Virus record (IMG/VR): IMGVR_UViG_3300038701_000270
Coordinates: 1-29,006 of that record
From: a virus
Reading direction: 5' to 3' (one strand)
DNA length: 29,006 nt
The translations under genes and the position numbers were made by a program. Positions 16,673 through 20,350 of this stretch are shown here, one piece after another (within the stretch, counting starts at the first letter, position 1; each line of letters opens with the position of its first letter). The notes below the pieces were generated by a model that ran no database searches, had not been told where the DNA came from, and saw nothing but the letters and a program-made list of their open reading frames with translations.

Positions 16673-17240
16673 TCGCAGCCTCCAGTTTTTTCTTCATCAT
16701 GGCGATGGCGCTCTGGGCTTGTGCGCCGCTCAGAAGGTCCAGCGCCTTAACTTTCCAATATGCGCAGAACTTGGTTTCGTCGGTATTTGTCTGTTTGATC
16801 AGATCGTTGATTGTGTTCAACTCGAACTCGGTCATAGGCGCTGGCGCTCGCTCCTGCTTCGGAGGTGCCTTTGCCGCTGCGTTCCCGTCGTCATCTTCCG
16901 GGGCGATTCCAGCCATCGCCATCAACCCGTATCTCCGAGCATAGGTCACTGCCGAGCCATAACCCTGCATGTCGTTCTTCGAGACGATCAGAGGAACTCG
17001 GCAGTTAAGGCTTTCGCCGCTCTCGCCGTGAATCAGGATCGTCTCGACATAGCGTCCGTGTTCGTCTTCGCCGGTGGGCTGGATCAACGCGATGCCTGCC
17101 TCGTTCAAAGCGGGAAGGCAGGCGTCCATGACGTTTCCGAGATCAGCATACTTGCTGCGAAAGTGCGGGTTGTTGGCCTGCTTCAGCGCCTTGCCCATGT
17201 TGGCCTGCGCTCGTGCCAAAGCTGTTGCGATGCCCTTCAT
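16656..17240 (-). CDS. Erf-family single-strand annealing protein
   Basis: This 194-residue protein has the Erf core: NNPHFRSKYADLGNVMDA, EAGIALIQPTG, VETILIHGESGESL, then GYGSAVTYARRYGLMAMAGI and a DDDGN end. A flexible Ala/Pro/Lys linker (residues ~127-137) leads to a small helical C-terminal domain. Family members form rings that anneal complementary strands, often to circularise or repair phage DNA. With the exonuclease immediately downstream and NinB beyond, this is a complete annealing-type system. Confidence 0.9.
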   Translation of the reverse strand: MKGIATALARAQANMGKALKQANNPHFRSKYADLGNVMDACLPALNEAGIALIQPTGEDEHGRYVETILIHGESGESLNCRVPLIVSKNDMQGYGSAVTYARRYGLMAMAGIAPEDDDGNAAAKAPPKQERAPAPMTEFELNTINDLIKQTNTDETKFCAYWKVKALDLLSGAQAQSAIAMMKKKLEAANGTEN

Positions 17241-18811: not shown

Positions 18812-19179
18812 TGCCGATCTCGCGCAGATATGACCCTGACCTGATGCGGCAGATGCTGGCCGACGGAAAGTCAGTCGCGGACATCGCCAGTCACTACGGG
18901 CGGTCGAAGAAAATGATCTACGACGCTCTGCGGCACTACGGGCTTCGGCCTCAGGATCAACCCGGATACCAGCGCAACCCAAGCCGCGAAAAGGCACTCA
19001 AGCTGGCGCGCGCCGGGTTCGCTGCCCGCCCAATATCAATCATGCTCGACTGCCCCGAAAATACGGTGCGCTGGTGGATCGCCGCCTCGGACGTGACCAG
19101 GAAGCCGGACATCCATATGCCGACGGTCAAGAACAACCCGGATCTGGTCCGGCATCGTTTTGCGGAGGCGATGCGGTGA
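18811..19179 (+). CDS. DNA-binding protein with two helix-turn-helix segments
   Basis: This 122-residue protein starts at ATG 18811 (GGAGG 6 nt upstream, TGATG overlap); a GTG one codon earlier is less likely. It has an HTH at residues ~20-44 (KSVADIASHYGRSKKMIYDA) and a second at ~55-85 (ALKLARAGFAARPISIML then NTVRWWI). The layout resembles short phage or transposase-type HTH proteins that recognise DNA without an enzymatic domain. It ends AEAMR, exactly as the methyltransferase that follows. Confidence 0.72.
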   Translation: MPISRRYDPDLMRQMLADGKSVADIASHYGRSKKMIYDALRHYGLRPQDQPGYQRNPSREKALKLARAGFAARPISIMLDCPENTVRWWIAASDVTRKPDIHMPTVKNNPDLVRHRFAEAMR

Positions 19180-19181
19180 AG
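19162..19181 (+). repeat. Left copy of the 20-bp direct repeat flanking the methyltransferase
   Basis: GCGGAGGCGATGCGGTGAAG at 19162-19181 is repeated exactly at 19977-19996. It includes the ribosome site, the last four codons (EAMR) of the upstream gene and the GTG start of the methyltransferase. Confidence 0.95.
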
Positions 19182-19994
19182 CTGCGCGTTCTGGACTTGT
19201 TCAGCGGCATAGGCGGTTTCAGCCTTGGCCTTGAACGGACGGGCGGATTTGAGACCATCGCCTTCTGTGAATACGAAGCGTTTCCCCGCGCTGTCTTGAG
19301 GAAGCACTGGCCTGACGTGCCGTGCTTCCCAGACGTCAGAACCTTGAAAGGATCGGACATTGAAGGGCCAGTTGACGTTATTTGCGGCGGATACCCATGC
19401 CAGCCATTCTCCACTGCCGGGCAGCGCAGAGGCAAAGAAGATGACCGCCACCTCTGGCCTGAATTTAGTCGGCTCGTGGCTGAACTCAGGCCCACTTGGG
19501 TCATTGGAGAAAACGTTGCTGGGCACATCAGCATGGGCCTCGACGACGTGCTTTCTGACTTGGAAGGACAAGGCTACGCCTGCCGGTCGTTTGTTATTCC
19601 AGCTTGCGCTGTCGGTGCCCAGCATAGACGCGACAGATGCTGGACTGTGGCCTACTCCGCGCAGTTGCAGCGCGATGGCAGCGGAGAACATTGGGAACAG
19701 GGTCAACGACAAGTTCCCCAATCTGGAAAGCGAAGTGGCGCGGAGTTTGTGGCCCACGCCCACAAGCCGGGACCACAAGGACACGGGCGACTGCGCCAAC
19801 GTTCCGATCAATGGTCTTTTGGGACGCAGCGTTGGTCCGAGCCGGGCAAATGGCTCCCTGAACCCGACGTGGGTCGAGTGGCTCATGGGGTTCCCAGAAG
19901 GGTGGACCGACTTAAAGCCCTCGGAAATGCCGTAGTACCTCAGGTCGTCCAGATGATCGGTCATGCCATTCTTGAGGCGGAGGCGATGCGGTGA
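19176..19994 (+). CDS. C5-cytosine DNA methyltransferase
   Basis: This 272-residue enzyme starts at GTG 19176 (GGAGG 9 nt upstream, GTGA overlap). It methylates cytosine at carbon 5 in a specific DNA sequence, using S-adenosylmethionine. All core motifs are present in order: DLFSGIGGFSLGLE (I, residues 7-20), GGYPCQPFS (IV, catalytic Cys75), ENV (VI, 112-114), HRRDR (VIII, 150-154) and LKALGNAVVPQ (X, ~246-256). The target domain between VIII and X is short and Gly/Arg/His-rich. It is probably an orphan modification enzyme protecting phage DNA, since no restriction partner is seen. It is bracketed by a 20-bp direct repeat and contains a 576-nt second frame. Confidence 0.95.
   Translation: MKLRVLDLFSGIGGFSLGLERTGGFETIAFCEYEAFPRAVLRKHWPDVPCFPDVRTLKGSDIEGPVDVICGGYPCQPFSTAGQRRGKEDDRHLWPEFSRLVAELRPTWVIGENVAGHISMGLDDVLSDLEGQGYACRSFVIPACAVGAQHRRDRCWTVAYSAQLQRDGSGEHWEQGQRQVPQSGKRSGAEFVAHAHKPGPQGHGRLRQRSDQWSFGTQRWSEPGKWLPEPDVGRVAHGVPRRVDRLKALGNAVVPQVVQMIGHAILEAEAMR
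19360..19935 (+). CDS. 191-codon frame nested in the methyltransferase gene (+1 frame)
   Basis: An uninterrupted frame on the same strand, offset by +1 from the methyltransferase. It starts at TTG 19360 with GAAAGG 8-9 nt upstream and stops at 19935. The product has KKMTATSGLNL (residue ~27), a middle FLTWKDKATPAGRLLFQLA, two LWPTP motifs (LWPTPRSCS and LWPTPTSRDHKDTG) and a C-terminal LNPTWVEWLMGFPEGWTDL. I recall database proteins carrying MTATSG, LWPTP and LNPxWVEWLMGFP together. Whether they are real proteins or recurring misreadings of methyltransferase DNA cannot be settled here. No enzymatic motif is visible. Confidence 0.42.
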   Translation: MKGQLTLFAADTHASHSPLPGSAEAKKMTATSGLNLVGSWLNSGPLGSLEKTLLGTSAWASTTCFLTWKDKATPAGRLLFQLALSVPSIDATDAGLWPTPRSCSAMAAENIGNRVNDKFPNLESEVARSLWPTPTSRDHKDTGDCANVPINGLLGRSVGPSRANGSLNPTWVEWLMGFPEGWTDLKPSEMP

Positions 19995-19996
19995 AG
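19977..19996 (+). repeat. Right copy of the 20-bp direct repeat flanking the methyltransferase
   Basis: This second exact copy spans the end of the methyltransferase (EAMR, stop) and the GTG start of the DUF1064 gene. The distance between copies is 815 nt, and each copy plays the same role at a gene junction. Confidence 0.95.
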
Positions 19997-20350
19997 GTCC
20001 CTCCCCGCTACGCTCGTCGCGCATCTCGGAACAAATACGGCGCGAAGAAAACGCAGGTCGGTGACATCACCTTCGCGAGCAAGAAGGAAGCCTTGCGCTG
20101 GATAGAACTCCAGATGCTGGAAAAGGCTGGCGAGATCAGCGATTTACAGCGACAAGTTAAGATCGAACTGATGGGTCAATATCGCCCGCTCTACACGCGG
20201 ACGGGGCGCAAGATGAAGCTGACGGCAGACTTTTCGTATGTTGAGGACGGCGTCCGAGTGCTAGAAGAGACCAAAGGGTTTAGGACACGCGACTACGAGG
20301 TCCGGGTGGCGGTGGCTCGCGCAATGGGACTGGAGATCAGAGAGACATGA
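19991..20350 (+). CDS. DUF1064 family protein, predicted nuclease
   Basis: This 119-residue protein from GTG 19991 reads NKYGAKKTQVGDITFASKKE, ALRWIELQMLEKAGEISDLQ, KLTADFSYVEDGVRVLEETKG and TRDYEVRVAVARAMGLEI. This is the DUF1064 pattern: SK.EA at the start, and the D-x(n)-E-x-K core (Asp in TADFSYV, then EETKG) of a PD-(D/E)XK-like fold. Members are predicted Holliday-junction or end-processing nucleases of phages. It is coupled to the methyltransferase (GTGA) and to the next gene (ATGA). Confidence 0.85.
   Translation: MKVPPRYARRASRNKYGAKKTQVGDITFASKKEALRWIELQMLEKAGEISDLQRQVKIELMGQYRPLYTRTGRKMKLTADFSYVEDGVRVLEETKGFRTRDYEVRVAVARAMGLEIRET

Follow-up and report, generated by a model that had tools for sequence, protein, structure and literature searches.

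A probable DNA-recognition subunit nested in the +1 frame of a phage C5-cytosine methyltransferase gene

The window, which is the whole stretch of 29,006 nucleotides that was analysed (positions 1 to 29,006 of IMG/VR virus record IMGVR_UViG_3300038701_000270), carries on its plus strand a C5-cytosine methyltransferase gene (19176..19994) with GTG at 19176 as the start codon and with a product here called alpha. Its motif IV, GGYPCQPFS, containing the catalytic Cys, was read from the translation at 19386..19412, and its motif X core, GNAVVP, placed on the GNSVV of M.HhaI, lies at 19923..19940. A program-made list of open reading frames revealed a second frame of 191 amino acids on the same strand (19360..19935), shifted by +1 and contained entirely within the methyltransferase gene. 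This frame, here called beta, starts with TTG at 19360, its stop codon ends at 19935, and a putative ribosome site (GAAAGGA, 19346..19352) is located 7 nt before the TTG. The ATG at 19441..19443, which opens the sequence MTATSG, is a candidate alternative start. Toward its C-terminus beta contains two recognition modules, LWPTPRSCSAMAAENIGNRVNDKFPNLESEVARS (19645..19746) and LWPTPTSRDHKDTGDCANVPINGLLGRSVGPSRANGS (19747..19857), and a motif IX, LNPTWVEWLMGFPEGWTDL (19858..19914). The position, the TTG, the +1 shift and the ribosome site of the nested frame were exactly those of the original prediction, and the pairs of readings that it had quoted from the two frames (DDRHLW/MTATSG and EPDVGRVAHGV/NPTWVEWLMGF) were also right.

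Alpha matched PHROG 363 (E 3.1e-84) and PF00145 (E 9.5e-40), the latter only up to profile position 176 of 324. The catalytic PCQ, ENV and motif VIII were present and in order. Alpha aligned with residues 12-174 of M.HhaI and, weakly, with residues 296-317, a second segment that is weak alone (i-Evalue 3.4) but collinear, and with no other part of that enzyme. Neither the PF00145 scan nor the M.HhaI alignment revealed a counterpart of the M.HhaI recognition domain or motif IX in the alpha frame. C5-methyltransferases are expected to hold motif IX and the recognition domain in the same chain; in the window both were found in the +1 frame instead.

The C-terminal sequence of beta has the form of motif IX, the M.HhaI counterpart of which is LHPRECARVMGYPDSYK. 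The two are connected through relatives that have the corresponding block in the main frame: the nested family was joined to this block by hhalign (98.4%, E 8.5e-15), and the block was aligned with the M.HhaI motif IX by the family profile. It was by way of these main-frame relatives that LNPTWVEWLMGFP was aligned with motif IX, and the smaller chain is the one that contains this motif. The repeated WPTPxxRDxK blocks of beta match target-recognition modules, with the WPTP modules of the nested family corresponding to the LPTP modules in the target-recognition domain (TRD) of single-chain enzymes (hhalign 96.3%, E 1.5e-9). A survey of modules yielded 324 of them, with a median of 40 residues, in 128 clusters and with 1-4 per gene. 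Several genes with only 55-66% identity in the alpha core contain module 1 of the window at 85-91% identity, and in locus L016 it was module 2 of the 3 present. Modules are shuffled between backbones. It must be considered that alpha reads the DNA encoding the modules as well, with conservation in its frame too; being dual-coded, its shuffling alone does not tell on which frame selection acts. A search of the PDB with the beta-family profile gave no hits at E≤10. The AlphaFold model of beta alone was of low confidence (pLDDT 61), and Foldseek with this model gave no matches.

The window gene alone proves nothing about the nested frame, given that 7% of synonymous-codon shuffles left the +1 frame open (P=0.07) and that it could be open by chance. 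The original prediction had itself offered the sober alternative of a recurring misread frame, in which +1 stops are rare merely because of the methyltransferase protein and GC-rich codon usage, and the conserved alpha motifs do force part of the +1 sequence. The relatives contradict this explanation. When synonymous codons were shuffled in 68 non-redundant genes, holding the alpha protein and the codon usage, 2 stops were observed in the +1 frame between motif IV and the position just before motif X while 263.7 were expected, bearing in mind that such shuffling ignores codon context and that related sequences are not independent events. In the same genes the +2 frame had 742 stops (754.7 expected), and 153 were counted in +1 ahead of the overlap (123 expected). 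The deficit held at 43-47% GC, and the 19 genes chosen solely by methyltransferase similarity had no +1 stops (86.4 expected). In addition, the family brings a built-in control for selection in a second frame, since in the 33 single-chain relatives the +1 stops were close to expectation (55 vs. 70.1 and 161 vs. 156.0): only genes that use the second frame keep it free of stops.

Other measures agreed with the stop counts. Pairwise identity of beta was 0.455 in motifs IV-VIII, 0.225 in the TRD and 0.434 in motif IX, far above the values of 0.264, 0.150 and 0.219 obtained under a null in which only the main protein was held, and on alpha-driven alignments which, if anything, reduce beta identity. 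Even at codons where the alpha residue differed, beta identity was about twice the null in motifs IV-VIII and IX, and 0.138 against 0.083 in the TRD. Synonymous change, scored at conserved residues that have at least four codons, affected 0.61 and 0.56 of codons in the two single-coding ends but 0.32 and 0.38 within the overlap. In 39 of 67 genes (6.8 expected) a start codon accompanied by a ribosome site was present at a distance of 7-14 codons upstream of motif IV, and starts were enriched a second time at the methionine of MTxTSG (41 vs. 5.6 expected, control window p+30). The converse test, counting alpha stops with beta held, gave 0 vs. 393.7, which is weak proof for alpha because alpha was open by the way the loci were selected. 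Hence the nested frame is a genuine gene under selection, and a misread frame is an extremely improbable account of it. The proposal that a true second protein travels with this enzyme class was thus borne out: homologues have almost no stops in the nested frame, the overlap is under excess constraint, and the nested protein is also encoded where the main frame is broken or truncated (loci L078, L294 and L326 and the second copy in L034).

The nested protein was used as tblastn query and detected relatives in 231 phage records (E≤0.01), on at least 592 IMG/VR contigs and on 12 plasmids; the loci compared in this study were at most the best 80 per scan, ranked by similarity. The hosts include Paenibacillus, Lacticaseibacillus, Klebsiella, E. 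coli, Vibrio and mycobacteria. The joint occurrence of MTATSG, LWPTP and LNPxWVEWLMGFP in many phage proteins, as stated in the original prediction, is confirmed by these counts. No family for beta was found in Pfam or NCBIfam, while PHROG 1008 (E 2e-33 with the window beta) and four smaller PHROGs collect this frame under the labels "DNA methyltransferase" or unknown. Phage annotators have named it hypothetical, "internal gene" or, in another group, "Mte8-like". In Paenibacillus phage Shelly the arrangement of SHELLY_55/56 is nested as in the window, with 38% identity to the window beta, and the nested gene is annotated as "g55 internal gene" without an assigned function. In an E. coli ST361 prophage (locus L421, 2363-3532) RefSeq divides the methyltransferase into two incomplete pseudogene pieces where the main and the nested frames are both open. 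Many phage members of this enzyme class appear in annotations as a single protein without a recognisable motif IX, and their nested other half has been overlooked, labelled hypothetical or grouped under "DNA methyltransferase" (PHROG 1008). The annotated protein expressed alone, for instance from a recoded gene, would be an incomplete enzyme.

Constraint is seen in both frames, and homology identifies motif IX as well as the modules. On this basis, alpha, with motifs I-VIII and X, and beta, with the recognition modules and motif IX, very probably constitute one heterodimeric C5-methyltransferase encoded in two frames. The main frame would provide a chain with AdoMet binding, the catalytic Cys loop, motifs I-VIII and, at its end, motif X. 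A second initiation inside this gene, predicted at the TTG at 19360, would yield beta. The N-terminal part of this chain shares its DNA with motifs IV-VIII of alpha, and the two WPTP-type target-recognition modules and motif IX follow. Both chains would then pair into one working enzyme in which beta, through its modules, selects the target site and motif IX fixes the recognition domain to the catalytic one. We infer in this way the translation of beta, its pairing with alpha, the activity of the pair and the use of the modules for DNA specificity. The biological use is likely to be orphan methylation of phage DNA, which would protect it from host restriction.

The original prediction had suggested that the nested product might modulate the methyltransferase or a host system. 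A related possibility is that beta is an independent accessory protein, such as a regulator, an anti-restriction factor or another effector that just shares the DNA, and the labels given by annotators (hypothetical, "internal gene", "Mte8-like") would be compatible with it. It could also find support in locus L034, where an intact alpha/beta gene is directly followed by a second copy at 912-1952 which encodes beta without a complete alpha. The main frame of this copy has no start region, is devoid of motifs I-IV and ends before a complete motif X, while its +1 frame is open for 347 codons, has an ATG overlapping the upstream stop and contains several further recognition modules. Nevertheless, its location directly after an intact alpha/beta gene is that expected of an alternative specificity subunit; the copy fits such an extra subunit, although it could also be a recombination remnant. 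Moreover, the single-chain relatives hold the same modules and motif IX within the enzyme itself, and alpha is without motif IX. A separate accessory function is thus highly improbable. With motif IX at its C-terminus and target-recognition modules as its repeats, beta is explained better as a missing enzyme half than as a modulator, and it most likely encodes the DNA-recognition half that the enzyme's own main chain lacks.

There are precedents for nested and split methyltransferases. In M.EcoHK31I (YGGCCR) the smaller ORF lies inside the larger one, in another frame. The window, where 19360-19935 is nested within 19176-19994 in +1, is comparable to this nesting. A two-frame arrangement is already known from that one bacterial enzyme, and this study shows it in hundreds of phages. 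By description, the chains are also alike in content: the larger one of M.EcoHK31I contains motifs I-VIII and X and the smaller one motif IX only (PMC3404938), and in the window the larger chain has motifs I-VIII and X without IX, which is in the smaller chain. The TRD of M.EcoHK31I was predicted in the larger subunit (PMC3404938), whereas here homology places the recognition modules, 1-4 per gene, in the nested frame, on DNA that alpha also reads. Furthermore, M.EcoHK31I is part of a restriction-modification system and the window gene is apparently an orphan phage gene. In this regard, E. coli genomes were searched for an M.EcoHK31I-like system and methyltransferase genes were found, with no restriction partner evident at the two E. 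coli loci examined, both of prophage type. Another split C5-methyltransferase, M.AquI (CYCGRG), has motifs I-VIII in the larger part and IX-X in the smaller one (PMC3404938). It differs from the window in that motif X is in the smaller chain and not in alpha, and in that the window beta is wholly nested and does not follow alpha. Apart from papers on split methyltransferases, literature searches for an overlapping phage methyltransferase gene gave nothing relevant. Within the searchable literature, three features appear to be new: the wide spread among phages, a modular beta and the recurrent frame switching of recognition and of motifs IX/X.

The layout of M.AquI is that of several relatives. 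The main frame terminates after motif VIII in L078 (a phage) and L294 (a Thermosynechococcus MAG) and ahead of motif X in L326 (an Actinomycetes MAG), and all three loci encode the modules together with motifs IX and X in +1. Mycobacterium phage Eaglepride has the corresponding parts annotated as two genes, 82 and 81, and its motifs IX and X are likewise in +1. A Rickettsiales/alphaproteobacterial clade (L178, L254-L257, L259, L260 and L262) has LNPDWVEWLMG[FY]P 28 codons upstream of motif X in its main frame, and two of three scanned proteins of this type matched PF00145 end to end. The recognition modules of these same loci are still open in +1, so that the division of labour between frames differs between loci. 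Single-chain actinophage methyltransferases (e.g., Mycobacterium phage JoeyJr gp71) share the recognition modules, motif IX and motif X with the window but, unlike it, have all of them in one frame, with +1 stops at the expected rate. One single-chain member folds like M.HhaI along its whole length (Z 22.4, rmsd 3.5 Å, 254 residues). Motif patterns, on which all these arrangement calls rest, placed motif IX in the main frame in 55 of the 64 actinophage-type loci classified and in +1 in the other 9; many of the 55 also have LPTP modules in the main frame. Some of the +1 loci were, over the best segment, at least 95% identical to a single-frame query. L355, L359 and L364 reach this identity with L341-L358 and yet have recognition and motif IX in different frames, a difference which could be due to frequent indels, phase variation or sequencing error.

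The fact that single-chain, split and nested forms interconvert might also point to a programmed frameshift, by which beta would not be made alone and would be the C-terminal part of a fusion produced by a slip from alpha into +1 after motif VIII. In L294 and Eaglepride such a slip would indeed yield a full-length enzyme. However, a slip would require none of three features of the nested class: a +1 frame that is also free of stops across motifs IV-VIII (0 vs. 166.9 expected), the conservation of that frame in this region, and enriched start sites of its own. In addition, motif X stays in the main frame, and one slip would lose it. Frameshifting as the source of beta is consequently very unlikely, and two separately initiated chains remain the preferred reading.

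A quick tree built from motifs I-VIII required at least 9 changes to account for the four arrangements, and several for the split state, with the main-frame-IX group forming one clade. One may reasonably guess that indels broke up a gene that was originally single-chain, in which case the +1 recognition/IX block would be old and the run-through of the main frame to motif X, together with the N-terminal part of beta, would have been overprinted; in the recognition/motif IX stretch the main-frame sequence may be the later overprint. On the whole, we consider it rather likely that this is a very widespread phage class in which the recognition half (several swappable modules and motif IX) is nested completely in +1 in the catalytic half, and in which recognition and IX/X have repeatedly changed frame, giving a dual-coded and shuffleable specificity cassette. 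If this is true, few same-strand overlapping gene pairs of phages would be as broadly conserved. With single-frame, split and fully nested versions of one enzyme, the family offers an unusual natural experiment for the biology of overlapping genes.

With respect to the surroundings of the window gene, perfect 20-bp direct repeats, GCGGAGGCGATGCGGTGAAG, flank it at 19162-19181 and 19977-19996, each spanning a stop/start overlap (TGA/GTG), and the gene so flanked looks like a cassette that can be exchanged or lost by recombination. Its neighbours, at 16842-17231 (minus strand) and 19991-20350 (plus strand), include an ERF-family recombination protein and a Holliday-junction-resolvase-like protein, which are usual in the replication/recombination region of temperate phages.
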